DNA of 64,000 nt from Falsiroseomonas frigidaquae. Lineage in GTDB: Bacteria > Pseudomonadota > Alphaproteobacteria > Acetobacterales > Acetobacteraceae. Within the stretch, counting starts at the first letter, position 1; every line of letters starts with the position of its first letter. Below the pieces are notes generated by a model that searched no databases, had not been told where the DNA came from, and saw nothing but the letters and a program-made list of their open reading frames with translations. Positions 32,317 to 63,975 of this stretch are shown piece by piece. The DNA lies in NCBI RefSeq assembly GCF_012163145.1, contig NZ_JAAVTX010000011.1, forward strand, positions 25,344 through 89,343. Direction: 5' to 3'. The position numbers were made by a program, and so were the translations under genes.

Positions 32317-32448
32317 GGCGAACTAAGCGCCGCTTCATTCACGTAGCCTGGGACATCGGACCGAAGCCGGCGAGCATCTGAGCCTGCCGGTTGTCTCCGG
32401 CATCCTCTATCTCGCTTGCTCTTGGTTCGGTTCCCACTGCGGGAATCG
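32317..32448. other. possible origin of transfer
   Basis: Noncoding stretch between attL and the mobC-like gene. It contains an imperfect inverted repeat (CCGGC ... GCCGG, near 32368-32390). Position upstream of mobC and relaxase is usual for oriT. Not otherwise supported. Confidence 0.25.
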
Positions 32449-32826
32449 ATGGGCAAGCCAAGGAAGCCGAAGACCACACCGATCTCGATCCGGTTGACGG
32501 ATGCAGAGCGCGACGAGTTGATCGGTCGCGCGGGCCAACGCAACTTAAGCGACTACATCCGGGCGTGCCTCTTCGGCATGGCGGCCAAGGCGCGGAACGC
32601 GAAGGCCCCAGCGCCGGCCTCGCGCGAGCTCGCGCATATCCTGGCGCGCCTTGGAGCATCAGACCTTGGCCCTAGCCTTCGCGAACTTGCTTACGCCGCG
32701 AAGATCGGGGCATTGCCGGTCACGCCGGAAGTCGAAGGCGCCATCAAGTCGAGCTGCGATGCCATCGTCGCGCTTCGCGCCGAGCTCATGCAGGCGGTGG
32801 GACTGAAGGAGGACCGGGTTCCATGA
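32449..32826 (+). CDS. MobC-like relaxosome accessory protein
   Basis: 125 residues from ATG 32449 (an in-frame codon further upstream gives an unlikely N-terminus). KTTPISIRLTDAERDELIGR near the N-terminus is a ribbon-helix-helix motif, and NLSDYIRACLFG follows, as in MobC/NikA-type proteins that bind oriT and assist the relaxase. The stop overlaps the relaxase start (ATGA). Confidence 0.75.
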   Translation: MGKPRKPKTTPISIRLTDAERDELIGRAGQRNLSDYIRACLFGMAAKARNAKAPAPASRELAHILARLGASDLGPSLRELAYAAKIGALPVTPEVEGAIKSSCDAIVALRAELMQAVGLKEDRVP

Positions 32827-34097
32827 TCCTCAAGGCCAGCCAGCGTGCCGGCGGTAAGCAGCTCGCCGTGCACCTTCTTCGCGATGACGAAAACGACCAT
32901 GTCGAACTGCACCAGATACGCGGGTTCGTGGCCGACGATCTGACGGGCGCGCTTCGGGAGGCCTATGCGGTCAGCCGCGGGACGAAGTGCACGCAATATC
33001 TCTTCTCGGTTAGCTTCAGTCCGCCCCAGGAGGAGAAGGTTAGCGTCGCGACATTCGAATCTGCGATCGATGAGCTTGAGCGCCGGGTGGGGCTATCCGG
33101 CCAACCGCGGGTGATCGTCTTCCATGAAAAGAACGGGCGTCGGCACGCGCACTGCGTTTGGTCGCGCATCCGCGCTGATGATCTTCGCGCGGTCAACATG
33201 GCACACTTCAAGCTGAAGCTGCGGGAGTTATCGCGTGAGCTCTATATCGAGAATGGCTGGAAAATGCCGCTCGGCCTAGTCAACAGCGAAGAGCGCAATC
33301 CACTCAATTTCACACGCGACGAATGGCAGCAAGCCAAACGCATTAGCCGCGATGCGGCAGGCATAAAGGCCGCGTTCCAGGATAGCTGGGCAACGTCCGA
33401 TTCTCGGCAGGCCTTTATCCAAGCGCTGGAAGCCCGCGGCTATTACCTTGCGCAGGGCGACCGGCGCGGCTTCGTCGCGGTGGATTATCTCGGTGAGGTT
33501 TATTCCCTCTCCCGCTGGAGCGGCATACGGACCAAGGATCTTGCGAAGCGACTTGGCGACCCAGCCGCTTTGCCGGGCGTCGATGCGCTGAAAGCGCAAC
33601 TCATGGAGAAGGTGGCCGATAAGCTCGCGTCCTTTGCCAGCGAGATCAAGGGCGAGTTCGAAAGCGCACGCCTCGGCCTCCAGGAGCAGAAGAAGCGTCT
33701 TGTCGCTTGGCAGCGGGATGAGCGCGCGATGCTACGAGACTTGCAGGCCGCAAGGGCCGTCGCCGAGGCGCGCACCCGCGCCGAGAGGTTTCGGTCAGGA
33801 CTTAAGGGGCTTTGGGACCGTTTGACCGGCAGGCGCTTAAAGATCGCCGGTCAGAACGAAGCGGATTATATCGCCTCTAAGCGCCGGGATGCGGAAGAAC
33901 ACCAAGCGCTGGTCGATCGCCAACTGGCGGAACGCCGGACGCTCCAACGGAAGATTGCCGAGCGACAGGTTCACCTGGATCGCGAGCTATCTGAACTGCA
34001 CGGCAGACCACCTATAAATCGAGAGCTGTCTATAAACACTCATGATCGGTCCCCGGTGCAGCGATCGAGGCGCCGCAATCCCACTTTATCACCCTAA
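32823..34097 (+). CDS. MOBP-like relaxase
   Basis: 424 residues. Residues about 1-160 carry the relaxase fold; the metal-binding histidine motif is FHEKNGRRHAHCVWSRI (about 98-114). The C-terminal half is Arg/Lys/Glu-rich coiled coil (LAERRTLQRKIAERQVHLDR). It would nick oriT and lead the strand to a recipient. Translationally coupled to the MobC-like gene. Its stop codon is inside the stem of the terminator. Confidence 0.8.
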   Translation: MILKASQRAGGKQLAVHLLRDDENDHVELHQIRGFVADDLTGALREAYAVSRGTKCTQYLFSVSFSPPQEEKVSVATFESAIDELERRVGLSGQPRVIVFHEKNGRRHAHCVWSRIRADDLRAVNMAHFKLKLRELSRELYIENGWKMPLGLVNSEERNPLNFTRDEWQQAKRISRDAAGIKAAFQDSWATSDSRQAFIQALEARGYYLAQGDRRGFVAVDYLGEVYSLSRWSGIRTKDLAKRLGDPAALPGVDALKAQLMEKVADKLASFASEIKGEFESARLGLQEQKKRLVAWQRDERAMLRDLQAARAVAEARTRAERFRSGLKGLWDRLTGRRLKIAGQNEADYIASKRRDAEEHQALVDRQLAERRTLQRKIAERQVHLDRELSELHGRPPINRELSINTHDRSPVQRSRRRNPTLSP

Positions 34098-34176: not shown

Positions 34177-34560
34177 TTAGCGCCGAAAGCGATCTGTGCC
34201 AGCAAAGACCGACTGCCACATACGGGTTGGCTCCGCTGCTTCGGGGATGTTCGTAGTCATGTGCCAGAGCGTGATTATCACGTCGTGTCCGTCGTCGTTG
34301 ACCATCTGTCCTACCCACGCGGTGAGTGCCGCAGTCGGCCAGTTCACTACGAAAGAGATCAGATCGCCGTTCACATAACCTGTAAGCTGCCCTGTGATAG
34401 GTTGCCCTTCGCCGCTCACAGCACTTTCGTACGCGCCAGCAACAGTCCCGTTCGTGACGGTTAGAGTAGCTCGAGACCCTAGCTGATTGCGCCAAACGCC
34501 AGAGAAATCAACAGGTAGCGCACTGGAACCAGCTTGCAGAAGGGCTTGCTCATGCTGCAT
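34177..34560 (-). CDS. avidin/streptavidin family biotin-binding protein
   Basis: 127 residues from ATG 34560 (GAGG ribosome site 7 bp before; the frame also extends to a TTG at 34653). The whole core aligns by eye with streptavidin: GVWRNQLGS (Trp23, Asn25, Leu27, Ser29), AYESAV (Tyr44, Ser46, Val48), then Trp74, Thr80, Trp82, Trp99, Trp115 and Asp123 in GTDRF. These match the residues that hold biotin, including the four tryptophans and the ureido-binding Asn, Ser, Tyr and Asp; streptavidin Ser88 is Ala. Neither start gives a signal peptide, whereas known avidins are mostly secreted. Divergent from a permease gene and near a biotin ligase gene. Confidence 0.85.
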   Translation of the reverse strand: MQHEQALLQAGSSALPVDFSGVWRNQLGSRATLTVTNGTVAGAYESAVSGEGQPITGQLTGYVNGDLISFVVNWPTAALTAWVGQMVNDDGHDVIITLWHMTTNIPEAAEPTRMWQSVFAGTDRFRR

Positions 34561-34859
34561 GGCGACCTCGATCTCGGCTCGATGCGAGCATAGGCGAGTC
34601 AATGATCGAAATGCAACGTGTGACAGAACAAGGCCCCCGGACTCGACGATCAAGCCGGTGTCCTACCTTATATGGTGCTGCGAGGCGTCGGCCTGAGGCA
34701 TAGCGCCCGGCCGCCACATTCGAGATCTGCGCTTCCCGATGAGGTAACAGATTTGTCTGCTCATCTTCGTTGCCATCGCAAACTTATTCAGTCACAGTTA
34801 GCCCCACAGCCGGTTTCGAACCTTACTCGATCATTGTTTATCCTTTGGAGACAGTGGCA
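34561..34859. promoter_or_regulatory. divergent promoter region avidin / permease
   Basis: 299 bp between the avidin start and the permease start. Composition is mixed and AT-richer than the host part. I looked for a BioR-like box (TTATNNATAA) and did not find one. A ribosome site GGAG precedes the permease ATG. Confidence 0.4.
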
Positions 34860-35831
34860 ATGCAGCATGGTCGACCTTACGGGAGCGATATTGCCATTGC
34901 TGCCGCATTCGGCGCACTAGCCGCGACCGGGTATGCCCTTCAGCACCCATTTTCAAAGCCTGCCGCGACGAGGATTGGCTCTTCATTTAGCGCCGGGCTA
35001 TGGCTAGTGATTTTGACGGAACTTGTCTTGGCATCGGCTGCTGTTGCTCTATTAATCGCAAGCTCAAAAATCCGAGAGCAAGCGGCGTCAATTTTCGTCG
35101 GTAGAACTAATTTGACTGGGCTACTCCTAAATTGTTTCGTCGGCGCGGTCTCGCTACTAACATATTTATACGCCATCTCGATTGCCGATCAAATTTTCCT
35201 CGCAGCGATCCTGAACTGCTTTCCGTTCTGGCATGCCCTGATCGGCAGTTGGTTTTTTTCGAAAGCCAAAATGAGGCTAGCAGAGTGGGGAGTATTTGTA
35301 GCAGCACTGACAACGATTATATTGATTTCGGCATCCGATTTTGAACGCGGGGGTATCTGGCAATTCTTTTTATTCTCCCTTACACCTATTGGATTCTCCC
35401 TCGGAGTTTTCATTCGGGCGTCCTATTGGGGCACACTTGGACCACTGCCGTTTCTCTGCGCAACGACGATCTTTAACGCGCCAATTTTCTTGACCGGCTG
35501 CATAATTGCCTTGGGGGCGTCGTTTAACTGGAATACATTCATGGGCATTCTAAATGAAGATCTAGTATTTTTCGGTATTGGAGCGCTATCTTCCGTTGGC
35601 GCTACATATTTTTTGCACCGAGGGCACTCGATTTCGCCGAAAGTTAGTTGGGTGGCCGGATTTATGCTTTTTCTGGTTCCAGGAATGACGGCATTCTTAA
35701 GCTACGCCACTATTCGACTTTTTAAGACTGATATTCCCTTTGAATTTAGATATGTTGTGCTTTCCGCACTAATGATGGTTTACCTGCTGACATATTACTC
35801 ATACACTCAATGGACCGAATTAAAAAGATAA
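34860..35831 (+). CDS. DMT/EamA-like ten-helix permease
   Basis: 323 residues from ATG 34860 (GGAG ribosome site 10 bp before). About ten hydrophobic helices, for example AIAAAFGALAATGYALQHPF, LLLNCFVGAVSLLTYLYAIS, VFVAALTTIILISA and FGIGALSSVGATYFLHRGHS, in two halves as in the drug/metabolite transporter superfamily. Substrate not evident; because of its neighbours (avidin, biotin ligase, BPL_N) a biotin or biotin-precursor substrate is plausible but unproven. Distinctly AT-rich, unlike the host genes. Confidence 0.75.
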   Translation: MQHGRPYGSDIAIAAAFGALAATGYALQHPFSKPAATRIGSSFSAGLWLVILTELVLASAAVALLIASSKIREQAASIFVGRTNLTGLLLNCFVGAVSLLTYLYAISIADQIFLAAILNCFPFWHALIGSWFFSKAKMRLAEWGVFVAALTTIILISASDFERGGIWQFFLFSLTPIGFSLGVFIRASYWGTLGPLPFLCATTIFNAPIFLTGCIIALGASFNWNTFMGILNEDLVFFGIGALSSVGATYFLHRGHSISPKVSWVAGFMLFLVPGMTAFLSYATIRLFKTDIPFEFRYVVLSALMMVYLLTYYSYTQWTELKR

Positions 35832-35947
35832 CTGCTTGGCTTGCAATGCGATTCTTTGTCGCATCGAGGAACTCGAGCGTGTGGAACGCCAATCCTCACC
35901 CCGCCTCTGAAAGGCCAGTAGGCCATGGCGCGAAAAGCGAGCCTGTT

Positions 35948-35964
35948 GCGGGAGAATCTCCCGC
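35948..35964. terminator. inverted repeat between convergent permease and biotin ligase genes
   Basis: GCGGGAGA-A-TCTCCCGC, a perfect 8-bp dyad between two converging genes, followed by a short T-rich stretch. Likely terminator, possibly bidirectional. Confidence 0.4.
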
Positions 35965-36007
35965 CGCTCTTATTGGAAGGTATCCACCGCCGATGCTTTA
36001 GCCGCAC

Positions 36008-36754
36008 TTAGGGCGCCTTCAGGATGACTTCGCCGGTGATGAGCCTCGATATAGAGCCATCGCTCTTCTTAAGGATAAGAGCACCATCAATGTCGATTCC
36101 CTCGTAAATTCCTTCCTCATAAAACGTCTTATTATGCCCTAGGCCAACAGTAACTCTTTCGCCAAGCCTGTGAGCGCACTGCAAATAGGCTAATCGGATG
36201 GCTGCAAATCCTTTTTGAACCCACAAATCTAGGAACGCGCAAAATCTTATGTTCAGCCGCTCTATGATGGCATCGCGGCTCGCTTGTGGAAATCCAAGTG
36301 AATGAAGCGCACCCGGCGGATACACCATCCCCGCCCCCTCAGGGTGATGCCTTACGTTGACGCCAGTTCCGACGACGATCCAGCCGGGAGTCCTATCTGA
36401 GTAAGCTCCAGCTTCAATGAGAGATCCGCCCACCTTTCTTTCTTGCAGTATAAGGTCGTTTGGCCATTTAAACGAAATACCTGAGTTTGCTCCAAGCGCG
36501 TCATCGATCGCCGCCTTTACCGCCAAGGCGTTTACGAAAGGGAGTTCGCCAACGCTCGGCCACGTTGGTTGGGGCCTGAGCAAAATTGACCAGAAGACAT
36601 TGCCCTCTTCAGATATCCATTGACGATCGTGGCGGCCACGCCCCGCGGTCTGGCGGCGGGCCCAAACGACAGTAAGGTGACCACCCGCCTCACTCGTCAA
36701 TCGCTTTAAGTCATCATTTGTGCTTCCGGTCACGTCCTTCTCAATTACCAGCAT
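36008..36754 (-). CDS. birA: biotin--protein ligase catalytic domain (BirA-like, no HTH)
   Basis: 248 residues from ATG 36754, chosen for the strong GGGAGGAA site five bases before it. Signatures: TAGRGRHDRQWISEEGNVFW (biotin/adenylate loop), FKWPNDLI and KVGGSLIE with the catalytic Lys, then WIVVGTGVNV; a C-terminal SH3-like domain (GIYEGIDIDGALILKKSDGS). No N-terminal helix-turn-helix, so it is a ligase without repressor function. It lies in the mobile element and is AT-richer than the host, so it should be an extra copy. Gene order: BPL_N protein upstream, permease convergent downstream. Confidence 0.88.
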   Translation of the reverse strand: MLVIEKDVTGSTNDDLKRLTSEAGGHLTVVWARRQTAGRGRHDRQWISEEGNVFWSILLRPQPTWPSVGELPFVNALAVKAAIDDALGANSGISFKWPNDLILQERKVGGSLIEAGAYSDRTPGWIVVGTGVNVRHHPEGAGMVYPPGALHSLGFPQASRDAIIERLNIRFCAFLDLWVQKGFAAIRLAYLQCAHRLGERVTVGLGHNKTFYEEGIYEGIDIDGALILKKSDGSISRLITGEVILKAP

Positions 36755-36857
36755 CGATTCCTCCCGGATAGGTTGCATTCAGCGCTTAGCTGCCGCGTTT
36801 CTTTTCGACGGACCTACGCGTGCGTTTACGGGCCACAGAATGAACGCGGACGTGGAT

Positions 36858-37592
36858 TCAAGGTAGCAAACTATCTACCAATTCCCGAAAAGGCTCTAGA
36901 CTTAAGTTGTTCGAGCCGATGAGTGCGGCAATATCTTTAAAGTTATTCCCAACAACTTCGAATCTTATCAGTTCGATCGCCGACGCATCATACTCAACAT
37001 GGGCCGAACTTAACAACCATTTGCCGCTGCCGTAGGTGCCACTAACGATGGCTGGAGAATTATCGTGAAGCTGGCTAAAGGTGGCGATCGTCTCAAAGAC
37101 CGCCTGCGGCCTAGCGACGAATCGACACCCGCCCCAATAGAGAGCCCTCAACTTGCGCGAACCAAAATCTAGATCCACTATTCGCGCATCAGATCCATTA
37201 TAGCTCTCGGCCTGTGAAAAGTCTTTGATAGGGCCTACAGCCTTGCCTGGGAAAAATTCAAGCTCATTGCTCCGAACAATCTCGAACTCCGTGCCCCGCG
37301 CCCACTCTGTAGTCTCACACGCCATATATGCGCCAGCACATATCCCAAAATAGCTGCCTCCGCCACGTACATAATTTTTTATCGCGTCGTTTCCAGGTCC
37401 GGCCAACTTGGCCTCTTTATACCTGGATGCACCGCCTGGCATGAATAGGATAGTGACGTCTCGATGGAGCACGCCGCCTATAACTTCGTTGGCATCAACA
37501 AAATCAACATTCTGCTTCCCAAGAAGCCTGCCGAGAGATGTGTATAGCGTTCCATTTGAGGACACGTTATCCTGATAAATAGCCACCTTCAC
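36858..37592 (-). CDS. BPL_N-type glutamine-amidotransferase-like protein
   Basis: 244 residues from a GTG at 37592 with GGGGGAGG site. Class I amidotransferase-like fold: VAIYQDNVSSNGTLYTSL at the start, LFMPGGASRYKEAK, then GGGSYFGICAGAYMAC with the elbow Cys85. In eukaryotic biotin ligases a BPL_N domain is fused N-terminal to the catalytic domain; here it is a separate gene directly upstream of the ligase, so the two probably work together. The enzymatic activity of BPL_N is not known. Confidence 0.8.
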   Translation of the reverse strand: MKVAIYQDNVSSNGTLYTSLGRLLGKQNVDFVDANEVIGGVLHRDVTILFMPGGASRYKEAKLAGPGNDAIKNYVRGGGSYFGICAGAYMACETTEWARGTEFEIVRSNELEFFPGKAVGPIKDFSQAESYNGSDARIVDLDFGSRKLRALYWGGCRFVARPQAVFETIATFSQLHDNSPAIVSGTYGSGKWLLSSAHVEYDASAIELIRFEVVGNNFKDIAALIGSNNLSLEPFRELVDSLLP

Positions 37593-37700: not shown

Positions 37701-38636
37701 TTAGGCCGCTCGCGAAACAGCTTGCACCTCCTTGGTAGCATTGCCTTGCAACGCGTGAAGGTAGTCTGCGGCCCGCTGCGCATGGCTCGCCGCTGAAAAC
37801 ACAAAACGCTTGTCGCCCTTCAGCACCTCCAGCCAAGAGGCGATGTAGGCGGCATGGTCCTCCCGTACCTCCGGCGCGATCCCAAGATCGGCGCCGAGGA
37901 AGGCGGCGCCGAGTTAGGCAACAAGCTCTTCCTTCGCATACCCTTGGTCACCCCATTTCACGCGGCCAAGATCGCGTGCCAGGCGCTTCTCATGCTTGGT
38001 CCAATGGGTCAGCTCGTGCGCCAGCGTTGCGGCATAGCTCTCGGTGTCTCGGAACGTCTCGAAGGGCGGCATCTGCACGAAGTCGGCGCCTTCCGCGTAG
38101 TAGGCACGGGTCCCGCCATGCCGAATATCGGCACCCGTCGCGGCGAAGAACACATCGGCCGCTTCGATGCGCTGGGCAGGCGTCAACACGAGGCCTTGCG
38201 CGCTGGCGTAGTACTGGGCGGGCAAGCCTTCGCACTGCTCGGCATTGAAGACGGTGTAACCTTTGAGGAAGGGTATTTCCCGCTCGGCCTCCGTGCCGTC
38301 GTCCTTGGTTTCGGTGCGGGTGATGGAGTTCGCATAGACCACGAGTTCGCCGGTCTCGCCCTTCCTGACATGGCCGCCGAGTTCGAGGGCCTGCTTGAAG
38401 GTCAGCCACAACGGGCAGGCAAAGCCCTTCGCAACCGATGCCGACCAGAGCATCACGACATTGATGCCGCGATAGGGAATGCCGTTGTGGCGCAGCGGCC
38501 GCGTGATGCGCCCGGCGGCATGGTCTGCCGACCAAGGCTTCATCCAGGGGCGAACGCCGCGCTCCAGATCGGCGATGATCTTGTCGGTGATCCGGCTATA
38601 GACATCGGGCCGGGAGGATTGGTTAGTGCTTGCCAT
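37701..38636 (-). pseudogene. ardC: antirestriction ArdC, interrupted by an in-frame stop
   Basis: The frame starts at 38636 and contains the ArdC N-terminal ssDNA-binding region (WSADHAAGRITRPLRHNGIP) and the zincin motif HELTHWTKHEKR (about 205-216). It stops at TAA 37914-37916, after KEELVA, but continues in the same frame with LGAAFLGADLGIAPEVREDH and KGDKRFVFSAASHAQRAADY to a second stop at 37701-37703, which is the normal ArdC C-terminus. So one nonsense change splits a normal 311-codon gene. The truncated product (240 residues) keeps the zincin motif and may retain some activity. ArdC protects incoming DNA from restriction. Confidence 0.75.
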
Positions 38637-40455: not shown

Positions 40456-42573
40456 TTACTCGCCATCCGGAGCGATCCCATCATCAGCCGGTCTTTGCTC
40501 CCAACAAGGCGCGATTGCTTTCCAGTCTGGGGCCGCACCTTCGTCACCAAGCCAAGTCTTCCAGAACCCCGGATCGTCCGAGCGTGGCCGCTGCTGCCGT
40601 TCAAGATCGCGCAATCTGACCAGCACCGGCGTCGGTACGGCCCAGCCAAGCAGGATCGCCTGCTGCGAAGGCAGCGTCGGCAATTCCCCGAGGAGGCCAC
40701 CAAGCGCGTCGGGAACGAGCCTGCGTACAAGATTCTGGTCGACATCGTTGACGATGCGATGAAGCAGGAAGGAATTGCACTGGGCCAGGACGGTCGGCGA
40801 CAACTCGGACGGACGCTGGGACGCCAGCATCATCCCCAAACCAAATTTCCGGCCCTCCCGGGCAATGCGCTCGAAGGTCTGACGACAGATTTCCGCCGCC
40901 TGGGCATTGGCGCCGGCATCCGCATCCTTGCGCACAAAGCTGTGCGCCTCTTCAAGCACGAGCACTGTCGGCAACGGTGTACCGTGGGTTTTGAGGTGCC
41001 TTTGGAGCGCCTCGAAGATTAGGCGCGAGATCACAGCGACCGCGATGTGGATGACATCGGCCGGGACCAGCGAGAGATCGAGGATGACAACTGGTTCGAT
41101 CGCATCCGTAGTCGGACCAAGCAGGCGATTGAGCCAATCATCAATGGATGCCGCCCCTGCGCTGTCGATGACTGTTCGTAGCGACGAATCGCCGAGTATC
41201 ACCTGGATGCGGTTTACAAGCGGCTCGGCATTCGCGACTGCCTGGCCGCCAGTTGCCAACGCAACTTCGTGGAGCCGCTCCGGCAGTGCGTCGACGTCGA
41301 ATTTGACGGGCGCGTCTTCGCTGACTTCGCCATGCAAGTCAGCAATAGGGTGAGCTTGCACGAGGGTTCGAAGCGCCGTCAGCACCTGCTGAACGTCACC
41401 AGGCTGGAAATCGTTGTATCCTGATGACGTCGTGGAAGCCCATTGCCTCGACGACCTGACCGCTTCGACCGGTGCTCGTATCCCTGATATCGCCGCAATC
41501 AACGGAGCGCTCTCGGCTCCATATTCTCCTAGCGCGCCTTCGTCGGCTTGGATAAGCGCAAGCAAACCCTCAAGCATGCTGCCGAATTCGCGATTTCGCG
41601 GAAAGCCTGCAACGCTTTGTGGTACGTCTGCGTAAGTCTGCTCAAGTTGCCGCACATAGCCGGAATAGCGCCGGATCGTCTGCGCCTTCGCTGTTGCTGC
41701 TGTCGAGCCCGCGTTGCGAAGCTGGCGCAGCGCGCGAAGCAGCAGTGGCCGCTGCGCCCCTGGGGCCGCAGCCGTGAACGCCGCCCATTCCTGACCGCTC
41801 CAAAGCCAGCCCGGGACCGTCAGCGGCCCGGCGCCGCCGGCACCGCCAACGGCAAGCCGCCGACTCGGGATCGTGCCGTCACTGAAAGCCTGGGCATACT
41901 CGCCGTTTGGATCGAGTATGATGAAGCGGGCGTTTGGTGGCGCGCCTGCCTTTCTTGCCGCCGCGGCTTCCAGCGACCAACGGATGATGCCGGCAACGGT
42001 GCAGGATTTTCCGCTGCCGGTGTTGCCCAGCACGGCGACATGGCGACCGAAGAGCTTGTCGGGATGCACCCATACTTTCGCATTCCCAGCAAACGGAGCC
42101 GTTCCCACTTCCACAATCCGCTCGTCAGTCTTTGCCTCGACGATGGCGCGAAGCTGCGCCGCACTCGGCAGCAGCACGGGATCACCGACCGAGGGCAAGA
42201 CCGGGACGCCGCGCTCAAGCCCGTAATGGGGTCGGCCGTTGTCATCGACGACCTCAAGGCACAGAGTGCCAAAAGGGATTGTAAATACGAGCCGGGACGG
42301 AAACGGGAGATCGACCATTCCGTCATCGGGCGCGCCACGAACCGGCTTCGCCCTGTTGATGGCGATTTCACGAACAACGGCGACCACTGCCCCCGTTTCG
42401 TTGGAGATCAGGACGTAGGCGTTGATCCTTGGAAAGGCGGTGGGAACGCCGGTGTTCAGTGCCGTCGCCTGGGGCGTCTCGTCGAACAGAACGATCCGAA
42501 TATCCGCAGCCGTCACCGCTTCGACGCGGCCAACGGCAAACGAACCGATCCGTTCAACGATGGTCGCCATCAT
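40456..42573 (-). CDS. herA: HerA-family hexameric ATPase of a HerA-SIR2 defence pair
   Basis: 705 residues. N-terminal HAS-barrel-like region (ERIGSFAVGRVEAVTAADIR), Walker A LGNTGSGKSCTVAG (around 183), Walker B VLVLEEAHSF (around 540), sensor region GLGMMLASQRPSELSP, and an arginine-rich C-terminus. FtsK/HerA ATPases form hexamers. It is coupled (ATGA overlap) to the SIR2 gene just upstream. In known HerA-SIR2 systems the pair forms a large complex that depletes NAD+ on phage infection and blocks phage growth; function here inferred by gene pairing. Confidence 0.85.
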   Translation of the reverse strand: MMATIVERIGSFAVGRVEAVTAADIRIVLFDETPQATALNTGVPTAFPRINAYVLISNETGAVVAVVREIAINRAKPVRGAPDDGMVDLPFPSRLVFTIPFGTLCLEVVDDNGRPHYGLERGVPVLPSVGDPVLLPSAAQLRAIVEAKTDERIVEVGTAPFAGNAKVWVHPDKLFGRHVAVLGNTGSGKSCTVAGIIRWSLEAAAARKAGAPPNARFIILDPNGEYAQAFSDGTIPSRRLAVGGAGGAGPLTVPGWLWSGQEWAAFTAAAPGAQRPLLLRALRQLRNAGSTAATAKAQTIRRYSGYVRQLEQTYADVPQSVAGFPRNREFGSMLEGLLALIQADEGALGEYGAESAPLIAAISGIRAPVEAVRSSRQWASTTSSGYNDFQPGDVQQVLTALRTLVQAHPIADLHGEVSEDAPVKFDVDALPERLHEVALATGGQAVANAEPLVNRIQVILGDSSLRTVIDSAGAASIDDWLNRLLGPTTDAIEPVVILDLSLVPADVIHIAVAVISRLIFEALQRHLKTHGTPLPTVLVLEEAHSFVRKDADAGANAQAAEICRQTFERIAREGRKFGLGMMLASQRPSELSPTVLAQCNSFLLHRIVNDVDQNLVRRLVPDALGGLLGELPTLPSQQAILLGWAVPTPVLVRLRDLERQQRPRSDDPGFWKTWLGDEGAAPDWKAIAPCWEQRPADDGIAPDGE

Positions 42574-43862
42574 AATGCGCCTTCGGGAGCGGCGTCCCCG
42601 CTCGGCCTTTCGGTGTTGCCGCGCCGTTCCTTCAGTTCTGCCATCCTTATGGTGAGCGGATCGATGGCGGGTTTGGGCAGATAGTGCGACACCAGCTGCC
42701 GGATGTCCCCGAAATGCCGCCCGATGAGGAGCGTCAGCTGCTGAGGCCGACCGACTCTCGCAATAAAGGAGGCAATCTTGTCGTGCGGCTTCTCACTCCA
42801 GGCAATGATGACCAAATGGGTGGAAGGGATCGTCAGCATATCGGCGATGATCCGGTTCACGTGGTCGTCGCCAAAACTGTAGCCATAGAAAACTACGACA
42901 CTGTTCGGCCGGCATATCGACGCCGAGAAATCCCTGAAAAGGTCAGCATAAGGGTAGGCGGCCGTCTCGATATCCTTGACGGCGTTTGGGTAGATCATGA
43001 CGGAGTTGCTCGGCTTGGGCGGTACGGCTGGATGGGCCGGCTCGGCTCCGAACGGCAGCGCCGTGCGCCAGACCCGGGGGCGCTCGTAGCGCCAGTCCAG
43101 TGATCCATGCAGCTTTGTGAGATGCACAACGCCTTCAAGGTGACGCGGCTCGCCGCGCACCCCGGGAGGCGTGTAGTGCATGTCGATCTGTAAGCGCGAT
43201 GACCTGAATTCAGGCTCGATAGCCCCCACGAAGCGGTCAAGAATCCGGACGCCGGAAAGATCGCAGGCTCGCTCGATTAGACGGTCATAATTGGTCGTGA
43301 AGATATTTAGCCGGTCGCGGGACGCTGTTCTGCTGGCAAAACTCATGAGGAACGAGATCAGGATTTCGCGGGCGCTGGCGCTGCCTGCCGGCGCACCGGT
43401 CGATACGTGCAGGCCAGCCGCGATGCCTTTTTCGGTGGCTAGGACGTCATGAATGAAGCCGCCAAGGACCCGGTCAATCGCGGCCTCCCAGGTCGCTGCG
43501 TCCGGACTGCCCAGAATTTTTAGCCCTGAATGCAAGACGGCTGCGGCCGATAAGCGATCCTCTATGTTGGCCGTGCCCCGGCCGCTGTTGGTCGCGATGG
43601 CGGTTGCATGTGCATCGACCTTGTCTTGATGCGGACAGCCTTCGAACGCCCCTCCGGTCATCGTGACTGGGGACGCCCCCGCGCAATCCGCGATGGCCGT
43701 CGTAAAGCCATTTCCGAGGAGCACCGACAGATGTTCGGACTGAAAGACCGCAGAGAGCCAGGGCTCAATCCGCTTCCTCAGTTTTGACGTCTCGGAGGCA
43801 GGATCGTCCGGGACGATCGTTTCTCCGCCGAGGTGCAGTATATGATCGTAATCCCAGTTCAT
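42570..43862 (-). CDS. SIR2-domain NADase subunit of a HerA-SIR2 defence pair
   Basis: 430 residues from ATG 43862 (an in-frame TTG further upstream is a weaker choice). SIR2-like signatures: LLGNGFTTAIAD (about 47-58), FTTNYDRLIE (about 188) and KLHGSLDW with the catalytic His (about 250), then YGYSFGDDHVNRII. These give NAD+-cleaving activity in the SIR2-type defence proteins. Ends in an ATGA overlap with herA, as usual for such pairs. Confidence 0.82.
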   Translation of the reverse strand: MNWDYDHILHLGGETIVPDDPASETSKLRKRIEPWLSAVFQSEHLSVLLGNGFTTAIADCAGASPVTMTGGAFEGCPHQDKVDAHATAIATNSGRGTANIEDRLSAAAVLHSGLKILGSPDAATWEAAIDRVLGGFIHDVLATEKGIAAGLHVSTGAPAGSASAREILISFLMSFASRTASRDRLNIFTTNYDRLIERACDLSGVRILDRFVGAIEPEFRSSRLQIDMHYTPPGVRGEPRHLEGVVHLTKLHGSLDWRYERPRVWRTALPFGAEPAHPAVPPKPSNSVMIYPNAVKDIETAAYPYADLFRDFSASICRPNSVVVFYGYSFGDDHVNRIIADMLTIPSTHLVIIAWSEKPHDKIASFIARVGRPQQLTLLIGRHFGDIRQLVSHYLPKPAIDPLTIRMAELKERRGNTERPSGDAAPEGAL

Positions 43863-44016
43863 GTCGCCCCACGCCCGCCGGTTACCGAATGACAAGTCTC
43901 ATCACGCCCGCAGCGCGGGTCACGACTTCGCAGCGCGAGATCGACCACGAACTCCGACCCCGGTTCCAGTTCTGAGATCAGCAGTCGGGCGTGAGCGGGG
44001 TTGCAGTGTACCGGTC

Positions 44017-47000
44017 TCATGCCGCCGCCCTTCTGCCAACCTCAGTGAGGAGCTGTACAATCTGCTGCACGTCGGCCTGAGGAAATAAGCCACTAACGCC
44101 TTGATCATCGAAGTCCGTGAATGGGCTCTCGTAGAGGCGGCGTGGGTCCATCGCGCCGCGTTCTGTGAGATAGTCAATGATCATATTCACGAATTCAATC
44201 TGATTGGCATTAAAGTTCCGACCGGCAAGGAAATCGGCGAACGCTGCCTTGGCTGCGTCACATTCGAGCCCGACAATTGAACGAACAAATAGCCCAAGCC
44301 CGCCTTGAGAGCGCGCTTCATCGATATCGGAGGGTGTTGCGCCAACGTCTTCGACCAAAATGCGCTCCAGCACTCCGAGGTCCTGAGGCGTAAGTTGTTC
44401 ATTACGACGTAGCTTCTGAATCGTAATGTGGTCAAGGTGGCGCCTGAGGAAGCCTTGCGCCTTCATCTGGAAGCGAACGCGGTCTGTTCCAGCACCCGCT
44501 CGCGGCAAGGCTACGACAGCACCTCCGCCAATCTCGTCGATGAAATCGGTATAGACAAGGATGCGCTCCTCACCCTCGATCAGCTTGATAAGGCCCCGCA
44601 ATCGTCGGCGCAGGTGCTCAAGCGACCATGCATCGATGTCCTGCCAGAACTCATCCGTTTGCACCTCCAGGATCAGCGCCATGGCGGCGGCGACCATTGG
44701 CACATTGCCGAGGCTCTCCAGCTTCGCCGCTATCGCCATCACCTTCTCTTTGCAGCGAACGAATGTTGCATCACCCTTCAACAAAGAAAGCTGACCGCTT
44801 AGAACGATGAGATCGAATTGCTTGGCTGCCAAGTCGTCATCGATCAGCGATGTTGGCAGCCCGGCTACCTCGTTAATCAACGTCTCACATTCCGCGCTCG
44901 ACAGCGCATCCCAAGCTTCTGGCTGCTGGAAGACTTCAACGGCGCGCCTCTTGGCGCGAACGAGAAAGTTATCGAGTGACATCCCCGAAACTTCATCATG
45001 GAGGCGCTTGCGGATCTCGGCGTTTAGCTGCCCGAGGCGCTCTGTTCGATCGGCCTCAGGTATATCCTGAAGCGCGCTAGCGATTTCGACGCGCGCAGCA
45101 AACAGGCGCTGACTGAGCGACAGAACCGTGGTGCCATCCGACACGTTGGGGTTCTGATTGAAAAATTCGAAGTTTTGGCAAAAATCGAAAATTAGAAATT
45201 CGCCTTTGTTCTGACCAGGACCGAATAGGTCTGGGCTGAGGCGTGTGCCTCGTCCGATCATCTGCCAAAACTTCGTTTTGGAGCGCACGATCTTGAAGAA
45301 GACGAGGTTAACCACCTCCGGCACGTCAATTCCAGTATCGAGCATATCAACTGAGATGGCGATATGCGGCGCGCGATCGGGCACAGAAAAATCATCGATC
45401 AGGGATTGCGCATACTCCGTCTGATAATCCACGACACGTGCGAAATGGCCTTTTAGATGCGGGTAATTTGCATCAAAGCGCTCTGCGATGAATCGCGCGT
45501 GGTCGTGATTCTTTGCGAAGATGATCGTCTTTCCCAGTCGATCGCTACCGGCAACTTTGATCCCGAACGTCATGAGATGTTCCAGCACCTTGTCGACCGT
45601 ATCGGTGTTAAAGAGCCATTTGTTGACTGCGCTGGCATCAACGTCGCTTGCAGGGAGCTTCCCCTCCCATTCCAGCGCATCCCATTTGGTCTTCTCTTCC
45701 TCGGAAAGGTCATCGTACTTAATGCCCTCTCTCACGAAACGTAGTGGCACGGAGATCGCGCGCGGCGGAACGAGGAAGCGATCGGCGACCGCCTGGTCGA
45801 GATCATAGGAATCGGTGGGCACGCCCCGCTCAAGTTCAAACAACGAATAAGTGTCACGGTCGATTTCATCGCGTGGCGTGGCAGTTAGCCCAACCAACAG
45901 GCTATCAAAATAATCAAAAATAGAGCGATACTTCCGATAGATTGAGCGGTGTGCCTCATCGATGACAACGAGGTCGAAATGCCCAGGTCCGAAACGGCGC
46001 TGGCCATGCTCCATCTCGTCGATCAGGTTCATCATCGTCGGATAGGTTGATAGACACACCCGCGCGCCATGGTGGTCGTTCTTCTTAGGGTCGTGGCGCT
46101 CGATCAGGTTGGCGCTCGGCGCGGATGGAAGATGTTTCTTGAAGGCGTTATGCGCCTGGCGCACAAGCGCAACACGGTCGGCCAGAAACAGCACACGCTT
46201 GCACCAGTTGGCCCGCATAAGCTGATCGATCAGCGCAATCACGGTGCGCGTCTTGCCGCTGCCCGTCGCCATGACAAGAAGCGCCCTGCGCTGATGGTCC
46301 TTCTCGAACACCTCCCCAACACGGCGGATCGCGCGGGTTTGGTAGTAGCGTTCCACGATGTCCGCATCGATGCTGGTCGTTGAAAGAGAACGGCGTGCGG
46401 CCTTGCGCTGGCGCCACAGCTCCAGCTCGTCGCGCTTCATGAATCCATGCACGGCACGGGGCGGATAGCGTTCGTCGTCCCAGAGCCAGTGGTCATAGCC
46501 GTTGGTATAGAAAATCAGAGGGCGGAGAGCGAACTGCGTCTCCATGCAATCGGCATAGAGTTTTGCCTGTTGCTGACCGGAGCGCGGATCGCGGCGCGTC
46601 CGCTTCGCTTCGATAACGGCCAGCGGCTTACCGTCACTCCCCCAGAGCACGTAATCGACAAACCCCTCTCCGGCGTTGTTCGGCATGCCCGCTACCGGGA
46701 ACTCGCGATCGCGCGGCTGATCCAGTCGCCATCCCGCTTCGCGCAAGAGCAGATCGATGAATGCGTCGCGGGTCTGTTCTTCGTTGTAGTCGTGTGTGTC
46801 GGCTGCCGCCGTGTTGGTCTGCTTGATTGCCGCGATCTCGGCTTGAAGCCGCGCGATCTCGGCCTCGTGCGTGATCCGGTCGGCCTCGCTCTTGATGCGG
46901 GCCGCTTCCGCCCCTTCCAGCGCCTTGGCTGCGGCCTCGCGCTCCCGCGCCAAGGCCTGGAGTTTGGCAAGCGTCGAGGCTTCGACCTGCACCGCGCGCG

Positions 47001-47421
47001 GTAGAGCATTCGCGTCGAACGCCAGCCCTGGCCCTGGCTTCGTTCCACGCGCATAGGTGCGCACGAGCCAATAGCTGAAGTGGAACAACTCGCGGACGGC
47101 GGTGATGGCATTGCCGGGCGGGATGGCGCGCGTCTCGTGCGCAGCGACATTGCCGTAGTCCTTTATGATCCGCGCCTTAGCGACGAGCGCATTGCCGACC
47201 AGGACGCGGAACGTCCCTTCGTGGATCAATGCCGAGAGTGCAGTGTCATAGGGGGAGCGCAAGCTCCGGTCATGGGCGTACATCCACTTCACCGCGGTCT
47301 CCAGCGCCAGGCGCGCATGGAAGCAAGCGCCGCGGGCGTCCGTGGTCGCGTGCAACTCCGCCTTCCGCGCTAGTGCGAAGACTTCGGGAAATTCGGTCTG
47401 GAGGAAAGCAAACTGGGTCAT
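44017..47421 (-). CDS. hsdR: type I restriction endonuclease R subunit
   Basis: 1134 residues from ATG 47421, overlapping the DUF262 stop (ATGA). N-terminal DUF4145-like helical domain (about 1-130), then coiled coil, nuclease core with the D...ExK-type VDYVLWGSDGKPLAVIEAKR (about 255-275), helicase motif I LLVMATGSGKTRTVIALID (around 385), DEAH box VVIDEAHRSIYRKY (around 485), motif III LTATPRDE, and the VI-like QMIGRGTRL. Belongs to the EcoEI-like HsdR group. It uses ATP to translocate and cut unmethylated DNA. Last gene of the operon. Confidence 0.9.
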   Translation of the reverse strand: MTQFAFLQTEFPEVFALARKAELHATTDARGACFHARLALETAVKWMYAHDRSLRSPYDTALSALIHEGTFRVLVGNALVAKARIIKDYGNVAAHETRAIPPGNAITAVRELFHFSYWLVRTYARGTKPGPGLAFDANALPRAVQVEASTLAKLQALAREREAAAKALEGAEAARIKSEADRITHEAEIARLQAEIAAIKQTNTAAADTHDYNEEQTRDAFIDLLLREAGWRLDQPRDREFPVAGMPNNAGEGFVDYVLWGSDGKPLAVIEAKRTRRDPRSGQQQAKLYADCMETQFALRPLIFYTNGYDHWLWDDERYPPRAVHGFMKRDELELWRQRKAARRSLSTTSIDADIVERYYQTRAIRRVGEVFEKDHQRRALLVMATGSGKTRTVIALIDQLMRANWCKRVLFLADRVALVRQAHNAFKKHLPSAPSANLIERHDPKKNDHHGARVCLSTYPTMMNLIDEMEHGQRRFGPGHFDLVVIDEAHRSIYRKYRSIFDYFDSLLVGLTATPRDEIDRDTYSLFELERGVPTDSYDLDQAVADRFLVPPRAISVPLRFVREGIKYDDLSEEEKTKWDALEWEGKLPASDVDASAVNKWLFNTDTVDKVLEHLMTFGIKVAGSDRLGKTIIFAKNHDHARFIAERFDANYPHLKGHFARVVDYQTEYAQSLIDDFSVPDRAPHIAISVDMLDTGIDVPEVVNLVFFKIVRSKTKFWQMIGRGTRLSPDLFGPGQNKGEFLIFDFCQNFEFFNQNPNVSDGTTVLSLSQRLFAARVEIASALQDIPEADRTERLGQLNAEIRKRLHDEVSGMSLDNFLVRAKRRAVEVFQQPEAWDALSSAECETLINEVAGLPTSLIDDDLAAKQFDLIVLSGQLSLLKGDATFVRCKEKVMAIAAKLESLGNVPMVAAAMALILEVQTDEFWQDIDAWSLEHLRRRLRGLIKLIEGEERILVYTDFIDEIGGGAVVALPRAGAGTDRVRFQMKAQGFLRRHLDHITIQKLRRNEQLTPQDLGVLERILVEDVGATPSDIDEARSQGGLGLFVRSIVGLECDAAKAAFADFLAGRNFNANQIEFVNMIIDYLTERGAMDPRRLYESPFTDFDDQGVSGLFPQADVQQIVQLLTEVGRRAAA

Positions 47422-49529: not shown

Positions 49530-49660
49530 GCTGAGGCCTTCAGCGGCAGGCGCGCATAGAAGCAAGCGGCGCGGACGTTCGTGGTAGCGTGCAACTCGGC
49601 CTTGCGCGCGAGCGCAAAGATTTCACGACACCCAGCGTAGAGAAAGGCGAACTTCGTCAT
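49526..49660 (-). pseudogene. 5' relic of a second hsdR allele
   Basis: 44-codon frame starting at an ATG that overlaps the stop of the upstream gene (ATGA) and ending in an ATGA overlap with the DUF262 gene. Its residues MTKFAFL...EIFALARKAELHATT then RAACFYARL align with the first 42 residues of the downstream HsdR (MTQFAFL...EVFALARKAELHATT, GACFHARL). DNA identity is clearly incomplete, so it derives from a different hsdR allele rather than a fresh duplication. It marks where the original hsdR began. Confidence 0.75.
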
Positions 49661-50598: not shown

Positions 50599-50599
50599 G

Positions 50600-57227: not shown

Positions 57228-58475
57228 ATGGCGAACCACGAACACGGGCCTTCCGAGCCTATCCGGCTCCCACCCCGGCACAAGTTCTCATTTCAGCAGA
57301 CACTGCTGCTGTTTTGCGCCCTGGCCTCGGCCGGGCTGCTCTTCTTGGCAGTGCCTAACCTGATCGGCGGCACCGGCATCGTGGCGTGGATCAAGGCGCT
57401 GCTGCTGGCGCTGGCAGGTATGGTGGTCGCTTACGGGGTGAACCGGCTCGCGGTGGAGCGCGGGGCGCCGCTTGCGGTGATCGGCTACGCGATCGCGGCA
57501 GCGGCCTCGGTTATCTCCATCGTCATTGTCGGCGCCGGGCTCTTCATGGCCACGTATTCGGGCCTGGTGATCAAAAGCGTCTCCCAGCTGCGGCTCGAAG
57601 AACATGGCGATGCGCTGAGCGAGTATGTGGCGGCGAGTGGCCAAGCCGCGTCGCAGTCGGCGCGTGTGGTACCCGCGATCGCCGCGGTGGTGGCCGATCT
57701 CACGGCGAAGCGTGATTGCGAGGTGCGTAGCTCCTGCATCTCGGGGAGCGGCAATGGGGGCCGCGGCCCCGTGGCCCGCGTGCTCGAAGAGCGGCTGGGC
57801 CGTGCCGAAGCGGTCGCCGGTCAGGTCACGGCCGGCGCCGCGGCGCGGATGGAGATCGCCGGCCGGCTCGAAGCCTTGCTTGGCCGCTACCAAGCGATCG
57901 TGCGCGCCTCCGATATCAGCCTGGAAGACAAATGGCCCCAGCTCCGCGGGGTCGATGGCCAAATCCGCCAAGCCGTTTCCGAGCTCGGCGAAGCGATCCC
58001 GGGTTCGCTGATCGCCGCCTTCGCCGGTGAGCTTGCCGGCGGCATCGATATTCCGGGCCGGGCGGATGCATCGCGGCAGTTCGCGGCGGTCCTGCGCGGC
58101 CATAGCGGCACGCTGCGCAGCGTTGTCGGCTCCATCCCTGGCGGCGGCGGTCCCCCGCCGACCTTCCCGAGCCAAGTCGGTGTCTCCGATACGTTAACCT
58201 ATATCGGGCATTTCGCGCCGATCGCGGCGATTGCGGGCGTGGTGGAGCTGGTCTTCCCCCTCGTGCTGTGGATCTACACCTATTTGATGCTGCGCTGGGC
58301 GGCCTATCGCATCGCGCCGCCGGAACAGCGCCGCCGCCACGAAGACGATGAGGCTGTTGCCCGCCTCTTCGCGCAGGCCTCCGGCCGCGCGGAGACGGAC
58401 GTGCCGGAGATGACCAAGCGCCGCCCGGCGCGCGGTGAGCCGCGTCGGAATGGCCACTATGACGCAGAGCACTAA
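57228..58475 (+). CDS. membrane protein preceding the coupling-protein homologue
   Basis: 415 residues from ATG 57228 (GGAGG site). Three hydrophobic helices at the N-terminus (LLLFCALASAGLLFLAV, WIKALLLALAGMVVAYGV, LAVIGYAIAAAASVISIVIV), a soluble middle (about 130-320), and a pair of C-terminal helices (FAPIAAIAGVVELVFPLVLW). First of seven or more plus-strand genes that overlap or abut, so it belongs with the VirD4/TraG-like gene. Family not recognised. Confidence 0.7.
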   Translation: MANHEHGPSEPIRLPPRHKFSFQQTLLLFCALASAGLLFLAVPNLIGGTGIVAWIKALLLALAGMVVAYGVNRLAVERGAPLAVIGYAIAAAASVISIVIVGAGLFMATYSGLVIKSVSQLRLEEHGDALSEYVAASGQAASQSARVVPAIAAVVADLTAKRDCEVRSSCISGSGNGGRGPVARVLEERLGRAEAVAGQVTAGAAARMEIAGRLEALLGRYQAIVRASDISLEDKWPQLRGVDGQIRQAVSELGEAIPGSLIAAFAGELAGGIDIPGRADASRQFAAVLRGHSGTLRSVVGSIPGGGGPPPTFPSQVGVSDTLTYIGHFAPIAAIAGVVELVFPLVLWIYTYLMLRWAAYRIAPPEQRRRHEDDEAVARLFAQASGRAETDVPEMTKRRPARGEPRRNGHYDAEH

Positions 58476-60201
58476 CGCGATGCGCAAGGTTCGCCCGCGC
58501 GTTCGAAGCGGCCCCGTGAATCGCAGCTTCATCGTTGCAGGCGCCTGCTTCGCGGTTGCCGCATGGACGGCGCCGGACCCGCAGAGCGGCGGCATCCAGC
58601 GCTTCTATCACTGGCTGTCGATCACCTGCGGCGCGGTCTGCACGGCGCAGGGCTTGCGACTGCTGGCGAGAGACTACCGCACCCGCCGCGATCTCGCGAT
58701 CAGCGAGCGGCTGACTGACGACCACGGCTCCGCCCGGCAATCGAGCGCGGCGGAGCGCGCGGCCCGCGGGATGCGCGTCTTTGAGCACGGCGAGCTGCTC
58801 GGGCTTGATGACAAAGGCCGGCCCGTCTGGCGGCCGGCGAAGGCTCCCTTCATGCTTTGGGAGAGCCCGCCCGGCGGCTTCAGGACGGTCGCCGGCGTGA
58901 TGGGCAGCATCATGCACCGCGCGCAGCTCGGCTTTTCGGTCATGGTGCCGGACATCAAGGAAGAGCTGGCGGTGATGCTGGCGCGCAAACTGCGCGGCCG
59001 CGGCCATGAGGTCTGGATTATCTCGCCTTCGCGGCATCACACCGACCTGGTGGGCGAAACCGCGGTCAACCCGTATCAGCCGGTCCTCGATGCGCTCTAT
59101 GGCAACGATGAAGAACGCAAGGATGCAGTGAAGCTCGCGGCGGAGTTCGCAGGCATCCATTACCCCATCAAGGGCGACGAGAAGAACCCATACTTCGCGC
59201 ATGGATCGCGCCGCGCGATCCTGATCGTGATCCTGAGTACGGCCGTCATCGATCCGGCGCGCTGCACGCCGACGGCGGTGTATCGCCTTCTGGCTGATCC
59301 CGCGGCGTTCCTGAAGCGCTGTGAGGAGATTGATGAGGCCTGGCAAAGTCCGCGGGGGCGCGATCCCGTGCTCGAAGTGCTGAAGACGGAAGCACGGAAT
59401 ATGCTTCACCGCGCGGCGAAGAATGAGGAGAATTTCGCGTCCTTCCTCGAAGGCGCCAGTCAGCGCCTGCTGACCTTCAACCCAGCCGGCCATCTAGGCG
59501 ACTACGGGCGCGAGGCGATCCACAATCTGAAGGCGATCCGCGAGCGCCAGATCATCGTCTTCATCATGGCGCCGCTAAGCCACATGCGCGACTTCGCGGA
59601 CTTTATCTCGCTCGTCAACCACAACATCATCGCGGCGTGCAAGGCGGTGCCCGCCGGCCATCCGGTGCACATCGTCGGCGAGGAGGCGCTCAACTATCGC
59701 TTCCACGACTTGGTCTCGGACCTCGAGACGATGCGCCAGCTCGGCGTCACGGCCGACTTCTACATCCAGTCCTTCGTCGGCCTTGAGCTGCGCTACGGCA
59801 AGGAAGCCGCGGCGGCAATCGAGGCCTATTCGGACGTCCGTGTCTACGCGGGCCTGAACTCATTGGCACGTGCCAAGCATGTCAGCGACCAGCTTTCAAA
59901 CGCGACGATCCGCACGCAAGACTATTCGTACCGGACCTCGGTCGATCAGATCAGCCTTTCAAGCCGCGAGATCGGCCGTCCGCTGATGAAGCCTGACGAA
60001 GTGCTGGCGATGCCGCGGGATGAGGCTTGGGTGTTCGTGCGCGGCATGCATCCGGTGCGCGTGAAGCTCGTGCATTACGGCCAGGTCGCGCCGTGGCGGG
60101 ACTGGGTGGATGAAAGCCCGATCACCGGCACCAAGCTCTACGGCGCGCCGATCGTCCATGTGGACTATCCGGAAAAGGAGAGCGGAATTGGCCGGCCCTG
60201 A
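58450..60201 (+). CDS. VirD4/TraG-like protein with degenerate Walker A
   Basis: 584 residues from ATG 58450 (58459 is also possible). The layout follows a type IV coupling protein: a hydrophobic N-terminus, then GFSVMVPDIKEELAVMLARK where TraG has VvvlDpKGEl, NPYQPVLDALYG, and VHIVGEEALNYRFHDLVSDL (about 408) in the Walker B position. The P-loop, expected near residue 137, reads ESPPGGFRTVAG, that is without the invariant Lys. So it resembles coupling proteins but may not hydrolyse ATP. Overlaps both neighbours. Confidence 0.65.
   Translation: MATMTQSTNAMRKVRPRVRSGPVNRSFIVAGACFAVAAWTAPDPQSGGIQRFYHWLSITCGAVCTAQGLRLLARDYRTRRDLAISERLTDDHGSARQSSAAERAARGMRVFEHGELLGLDDKGRPVWRPAKAPFMLWESPPGGFRTVAGVMGSIMHRAQLGFSVMVPDIKEELAVMLARKLRGRGHEVWIISPSRHHTDLVGETAVNPYQPVLDALYGNDEERKDAVKLAAEFAGIHYPIKGDEKNPYFAHGSRRAILIVILSTAVIDPARCTPTAVYRLLADPAAFLKRCEEIDEAWQSPRGRDPVLEVLKTEARNMLHRAAKNEENFASFLEGASQRLLTFNPAGHLGDYGREAIHNLKAIRERQIIVFIMAPLSHMRDFADFISLVNHNIIAACKAVPAGHPVHIVGEEALNYRFHDLVSDLETMRQLGVTADFYIQSFVGLELRYGKEAAAAIEAYSDVRVYAGLNSLARAKHVSDQLSNATIRTQDYSYRTSVDQISLSSREIGRPLMKPDEVLAMPRDEAWVFVRGMHPVRVKLVHYGQVAPWRDWVDESPITGTKLYGAPIVHVDYPEKESGIGRP

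Positions 60202-62088: not shown

Positions 62089-63975
<1,887 letters not shown>

Follow-up and report, generated by a model that had tools for sequence, protein, structure and literature searches.

The 64,000-nucleotide stretch of DNA considered here (the window), from contig NZ_JAAVTX010000011.1 of Falsiroseomonas frigidaquae, carries a cassette of four genes that encode an avidin, a polytopic membrane protein, a ligase-only biotin protein ligase (BirA) and a free-standing BPL_N protein. An earlier note, made from the sequence alone, had described a biotin-centred set on a mobile element, a description that the profile searches and genome surveys assembled below support. We favour, at slightly better than even confidence, the interpretation that the cassette is an accessory module for biotin salvage and retention, carried on a mobile island in a host that is probably unable to make biotin.

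Under this interpretation, the membrane protein would import biotin or a biotin conjugate, and BPL_N would act on the conjugate as it comes in, perhaps by cleaving biotin amides of the biocytin kind, or would instead assist the ligase. Based on its family and motifs, the extra BirA would attach biotin to carboxylases, while the avidin, probably cytosolic, may hold a reserve of biotin, as its residues and a published rhizavidin mutant suggest. When the biotin supply is low, additional import, conjugate release, storage and attachment could each help an importing cell.

The four proteins of the cassette

The start codons of all four genes were picked by eye, with the help of upstream ribosome-binding sites. 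The avidin matches PF01382 with an E value of 1.1e-19 (71.3 bits against a cut-off of 24), and its best relative among solved structures is zebavidin (E 1.9e-11). It was compared with streptavidin at 17 biotin-contact positions. Eleven are identical, including N23, S27, Y43, S45, T90, D128 and all four tryptophans (W79, W92, W108 and W120), and six are changed or absent (N49, A50, R84, A86, S88 and L110, with S88 replaced by alanine and L110 by methionine); the biotin-holding residues noticed earlier are thus borne out. A GAGG motif seen by eye upstream of ATG 34560 speaks for a start there, as does an N-terminus, MQxExALLxA, common to this protein and the closest relative compared (L059). From neither this start nor the alternative one was a secretion signal recognised by eye (no predictor was run), and a cytosolic location is therefore likely.

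Direct evidence that an avidin helps when biotin is scarce comes from rhizavidin, a dimeric protein (PMC8033661). In Rhizobium etli CFN42, a rhizavidin mutant fails earlier when it is repeatedly subcultured in minimal medium, and either the gene or biotin rescues it; rhizavidin is described as conserving and storing biotin in this auxotroph, which has biotin transport genes (PMC8914248). An avidin that is probably cytosolic, is divergent from the permease gene and sits on a mobile element would also suit an addiction module, in which the avidin starves the cell, the ligase, permease and BPL_N serve as antidote, and loss of the element is punished. That scheme is highly improbable, as knockout of rhizavidin is harmful rather than relieving (PMC8914248), and as six other avidin loci contain neither BPL_N nor BirA.

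Avidin genes are rare, occurring in only six of 385 genomes of the class. Neither BPL_N nor BirA lies near the avidin in any of the six other loci (five in the class and one on a plasmid); the plasmid scan gave that single avidin, 31.9 % identical and without cassette neighbours. A literature search for avidin operons found no paper.

The BirA matches TIGR00121 at E 4.3e-38 (131.2 bits against 83.1) and also passes the cut-offs of PF03099 and PF02237. Because the TIGR00121 match begins at residue 12 of 256, the protein is judged to lack a helix-turn-helix (HTH) domain, as had been read from its sequence before. Its translation holds GRGRHDR, which fits a GRGRxxR form of the first ligase motif, as well as KWPND. 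The published form of the first motif is GRGRXG (PMC12582158). A second, chromosomal BirA is encoded elsewhere in the host, beside frames that look by eye like nuoM and nuoL. Among plasmid matches to BirA, those inspected (5 of 55 records) comprise one BioY-BirA pair, one copy of a nuo operon, one malonate decarboxylase cluster and two lone genes. The pair lies on a 31.6-kb plasmid of Limosilactobacillus gastricus (L173), where the BioY and BirA genes are adjacent, and the Rhodobacter capsulatus plasmid pRCB133 (L174) holds a BirA-like gene within a malonate decarboxylase cluster.

The third protein is encoded by an open hydrophobic frame of 323 residues, preceded by GGAGA (by eye). It had been taken for a ten-helix permease of the drug/metabolite transporter (DMT) group. 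The hydrophobic frame stands, and ten helices would be compatible with the data. It has eight strong hydrophobic segments, the same count as in Escherichia coli BioP and RhtA, and the simple count gives eight or nine for five E. coli DMT proteins. There is no match to any Pfam family even at E 10, no relative in the 15 other genus genomes, plasmids or viral contigs, and beyond its own genome only weak partial matches among the 385 class genomes (best E 7.5e-5 over 72 residues). A search of the PDB gave two seemingly unrelated matches (E 0.79 and 1.3), and an hhalign match covered 23 columns at probability 1.9. Alignment z-scores were 1.4 against BioP, -0.5 to 2.4 against four other E. coli DMT proteins and -1.0 to 2.1 against six other membrane proteins, a comparison of little power because BioP itself reaches only 1.1 to 2.9 against the other four. 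A single-sequence AlphaFold2 (AF2) model was of no use (mean predicted local distance difference test score, pLDDT, of 43.5). As no family, relative or structure was found, neither membership of the DMT (EamA) family nor biotin transport is claimed for this protein.

BPL_N and biotin uptake genes

The fourth protein, which had been called amidotransferase-like, matches PF09825 at 108.9 bits against a cut-off of 24.2 and has the class I glutamine amidotransferase fold. A search of the PDB by its sequence alone gave no match, and the BPL_N profile gave a weak one to PdxT (E 3.5e-5). The Cys-His-Glu triad is present, by eye, in the window protein and all 16 aligned relatives from the class (17 of 17). 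In seven further places in the class, three have both motifs; the motifs of L024 flank a stop, L022 and L027 miss one triad motif by a simple pattern, and L023 is below the cut-off. In the 81 proteins of the scan set, the cysteine (itself part of the scan pattern) is present in 81, the histidine in 81 and the glutamate in 79.

Within the family, one genome of 348 passes the BPL_N cut-off, the window's own, and one further genome has a match below it; in the class, 19 of 385 pass. No BPL_N was found in phage records and none was confirmed in viral contigs; plasmids gave no match with the window query and one distant match with a Vibrio BPL_N query. An alignment-based scan of the whole genome collection returned 264 relatives, and the locus counts that follow refer to the best 80 of them. 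The 13 nearest, at 48-53 % identity, come from Vibrio, Photobacterium, Marinomonas, Oceanospirillaceae, Aliagarivorans, an Osedax symbiont and one rhizobium, and in a FastTree phylogeny the window protein falls inside their clade (support 0.952).

In 11 of these 13, bioM, bioN and bioY stand just upstream of BPL_N; BioY is the adjacent gene in 10 of the 11, and in the other (L071) a 193-aa frame intervenes. Over the 80 loci, BioY occurs in 26, and in 22 it is within 500 bp, in taxa that include Gammaproteobacteria (Pasteurellaceae among them), Rickettsia, Chlamydiae and Brevinema. These counts are lower bounds, since several loci end at contig ends; at about one BioY per genome, chance would yield fewer than one BioY-BPL_N case among 80 stretches (a rough figure, not computed). 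In four Rickettsia loci (L096, L101, L102 and L107), BPL_N and BioY are divergent neighbours. A further class genome encodes, in a single frame (L053:2559-3608), BPL_N fused to a biotinyl domain (Biotin_lipoyl E 1.3e-10, with an ESMKM motif).

A bolder form of the salvage interpretation, tentative and rather unlikely, is that BPL_N is a missing biotin-conjugate hydrolase of bacteria, a cysteine amidase that would free biotin from biocytin or biotinyl peptides. It would then serve as the fourth component of the import pathway in many bacteria, fused later to the ligase in eukaryotes, and the window would hold a self-contained mobile biotin economy of import, release, storage on avidin and attachment by BirA.

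The gene order also bears on a different explanation. On the minus strand, BPL_N lies upstream of BirA in a separate frame (36858-37592 and 36008-36778, respectively), which is the order of the fused eukaryotic protein, and the pair could be a split counterpart of the eukaryotic class III ligase, with a non-enzymatic BPL_N as the partner of BirA in binding its protein substrate and with avidin and permease as separate helpers. The N-terminal domain of the yeast ligase has the same fold and triad (C89, H215 and E217), the enzyme showed no glutaminase activity, and interaction with the substrate is reported for its N-terminal extension (PMC12582158). Such an arrangement is nonetheless unlikely. 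Only 4 of the 80 loci, the Rickettsia loci named above, have BirA in the vicinity of BPL_N, at 4.3-4.7 kb, against 26 with BioY, a difference that favours a role in uptake, and so strongly conserved a triad would be surprising in a non-catalytic protein.

The full set was found in none of the other loci examined. Neither avidin nor the permease occurs in any of the 80 BPL_N loci, a single-protein genome scan and viral contigs gave no further cassette, and avidin and BPL_N come together in one of the 385 class genomes, the window's own. The check for co-occurrence suggested earlier has a mixed outcome: the set of four does not recur, but BPL_N recurs with bioY. Four accessory genes might simply have gathered at one spot of an island, sharing biotin by coincidence or through loose selection. 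In keeping with this, the genes occupy both strands with convergent and divergent spacing, the set has a single instance among the loci examined, and close BPL_N genes of Xaviernesmea and Photobacterium have no BioM, BioN, BioY or BirA within the stretch read. On the other hand, three of the four genes are rare or extra and each is independently linked to biotin, and the only class genome with both avidin and BPL_N has them about 2.3 kb apart; we regard unrelated cargo as improbable.

Biotin supply of the host and the mobile setting

The host genome comprises 6.08 Mb in 19 contigs (completeness 97.9 %). Searches for BioB, BioA and BioY covered 11 of the 16 genus genomes, the host included. No BioB passed the cut-off in any of the 11 (best about 31-37 bits against 225), nor did any BioA (344 bits against 405 for the best in the host); the absence of BioA depends on the cut-off alone, since aminotransferases below it abound in all 11. 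BioY is present in nine, the host among them, and two members of the genus (G007 and G009) have neither BioB nor BioY over the cut-off. With BioB and BioA missing at these thresholds and BioY present, the host is, on genomic grounds, probably a biotin auxotroph living by uptake, a setting that suits the earlier suggestion that the set loads or retains biotin. The BioM, BioN and BioY profiles had no match in the cassette stretch itself (G000:C2:58000-66000; L067). Among class genomes, BioB passes the cut-off in none of the 19 with BPL_N and in 24 of 80 without it (Fisher p 0.005). The controls were the first 80 genomes without a BPL_N match in handle order rather than a random draw, and the test, which ignores shared ancestry and small genomes, leaves Vibrio and its relatives outside. 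The link between BPL_N and missing BioB is threshold-dependent and only suggestive.

Several observations weigh against salvage and retention. At a looser E of 1e-20, BioB is found in 4 of 18 genomes with BPL_N (the host's own excluded) and in 28 of 80 without, and the difference fades (p 0.41). Basic use of biotin does not require the cassette genes, since the host has a BirA and a BioY apart from them, and tight binding by a cytosolic avidin could deplete the cell of biotin instead of storing it. To our knowledge, no BPL_N has a known enzymatic activity. No glutaminase activity was detected in vitro for the yeast ligase (PMC12582158). Import of biotin by the permease is a guess from gene context, given that the protein has no identifiable family. 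The four-gene set is a single instance among the BPL_N and avidin loci examined. Two of the 13 nearest BPL_N relatives are without BioY, and 17 of the 80 loci hold tandem BPL_N genes with BioY in none of them, so BPL_N has other settings too. A survey of avidins proposes defence (PMC8033661), and the island bears defence genes. These tandem loci (L082-L086, L088-L095, L098, L100, L106 and L133) belong mostly to Micavibrio and other Alphaproteobacteria, and their second copy is divergent. Salvage and retention is still preferred over withholding, addiction and loose cargo because of the rhizavidin mutant and the parallels of extra ligases in Lactococcus lactis and on the Limosilactobacillus plasmid.

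Withholding is the reading closest to the competitor or phage interference raised earlier, namely that the avidin takes biotin away from competitors, predators or phage-infected cells, with BirA, permease and BPL_N protecting the producer. The island carries SIR2-HerA, type I restriction and GmrSD defence genes, and the avidin survey, which proposes that these bacterial proteins act in defence, reports Gene Ontology (GO) terms for defence nearby and locations on mobile elements (PMC8033661). The avidin itself has no secretion signal visible by eye, the avidin of an auxotrophic rhizobium was shown to conserve biotin (PMC8914248), and BPL_N is absent from the phage records and unconfirmed in viral contigs. 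PADLOC models at E 1e-5 gave no match for avidin, BPL_N or BirA (the permease was outside that scan; other BPL_N neighbourhoods were not scanned for defence genes). Interference is thus not supported, and withholding in general is quite unlikely.

The cassette rides on a conjugation-related mobile island, as its surroundings support (Table 1). Family profiles place a NikA-like protein and a relaxase on one side and ArdC on the other, in agreement with the flanks read earlier, and the AT-richness noted for the cassette is confirmed, with a GC content of 0.515 against 0.625 at 32-34 kb, 0.588 at 38-57 kb and 0.72 at 1-31 kb. Within the cassette, the permease gene converges on BirA and diverges from avidin. 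The window has no match to a BioR-like box (TTATNNATAA); promoter and terminator scans gave results no better than shuffle level, and plasmid DNA matched the window between 28 and 45 kb in short stretches only.

Table 1. Coordinates of the cassette genes and of the island features around them
Feature	Position	Strand	Details
Avidin	34177..34560	-	127 aa from ATG 34560; frame opens at TTG 34653
Avidin-permease divergent intergenic region	34561..34859		Gene layout
Polytopic membrane protein, candidate (biotin?) permease	34860..35831	+	323 aa, ATG 34860
Group I (ligase-only) biotin protein ligase	36008..36754	-	248 aa, ATG 36754; frame 36008-36778
BPL_N protein, class I amidotransferase-like	36858..37592	-	244 aa, GTG 37592; Cys85-His198-Glu200
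NikA-like mobilisation protein, element backbone	32416..32826	+	PF21983 E 1.3e-6
MobA/VirD2-like relaxase, element backbone	32823..34097	+	PF03432 E 2.1e-14
ArdC antirestriction gene	37914..38636	-	PF08401 E 6.7e-42; internal stop closes frame
TraG/VirD4-type coupling protein, element backbone	58435..60201	+	PF02534 E 1.5e-21
Large serine recombinase, element backbone	62089..63942	+	PF00239, PF07508, PF13408
tRNA-Met gene	63899-63975	opposite to recombinase	ARAGORN; overlaps serine recombinase

Elsewhere on the island, the ardC gene beside the cassette seems broken, because the same frame continues past its stop to about 37690 with ArdC-like C-terminal sequence (by eye); its PF18818 match ends at profile position 82 of 126. 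Neighbouring HerA (E 9.9e-247) and SIR2 (E 1.8e-172) genes at 40456-43895 form a SIR2-HerA defence pair by PADLOC models, and at 44017-53319 type I restriction R, S and M genes are interleaved with a GmrSD-domain protein that has a C-terminal DUF5655. The serine recombinase frame ends within the tRNA-Met gene, about 60 bases short of the contig end, and this site (62089-63975) is a possible border of the element.

Comparison with known biotin systems

Mobile biotin uptake genes, accessory BirA proteins and storage avidins are each already known. We know of no earlier case in which these are joined to a BPL_N gene that stands beside BirA as in the fused eukaryotic protein. In the literature searched, partly by title listings and with subscription papers and supplements outside its scope, no paper connects free BPL_N with BioY. 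In eukaryotic ligases, the N-terminal domain carries disease-causing mutations and a Cys-His-Glu triad without known use (PMC12582158). Free bacterial BPL_N, which is tied to biotin import genes in several bacterial groups and lies beside a ligase gene in the window, offers a small protein for testing what the triad does. More broadly, the cassette suggests that functions for salvaging and storing a vitamin can spread as mobile cargo to hosts that no longer synthesise it. It also puts a bacterial avidin, a protein of debated role, among genes of biotin metabolism.

Among the closest known systems are the bioMNY energy-coupling factor (ECF) importer operons followed by BPL_N in Vibrio, Marinomonas, Oceanospirillaceae, Aliagarivorans and the Osedax symbiont (L068-L072 and L075-L080), in which a BPL_N from the window protein's clade (48-53 % identity) belongs to a locus for biotin uptake. 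Those operons have BioM, BioN and BioY and, in the stretch read, neither BirA nor avidin, whereas the window BPL_N stands, on a mobile island, with avidin, BirA and a permease that fits no family. R. etli offers another avidin in an auxotroph for biotin, one that also has biotin transport genes, and the sections of that paper used here do not mention BirA, BPL_N or permease neighbours (PMC8914248). Lactococcus lactis, an auxotroph with the redundant scavenging genes birA1, birA2, bioY1 and bioY2, resembles the host in having an extra ligase-only BirA; its transporter is BioY, and avidin goes unmentioned in that text (PMC4861984). On the small Limosilactobacillus gastricus plasmid, biotin uptake and ligase genes adjoin, with BioY and a 320-aa BirA as the partners, and the stretch has no annotated BPL_N or avidin. 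The BPL_N genes of rickettsial origin in Trichoplax are also free and are discussed, together with those of its rickettsial symbionts, as possible parts of a biotin exchange; they reside in an animal genome, and the sections used draw no link to BioY, BirA or avidin (PMC7750005). Finally, class III eukaryotic ligases such as yeast Bpl1 combine the BPL_N fold and triad with a ligase domain in the same order as the window (PMC12582158), as one polypeptide there and as two genes here.

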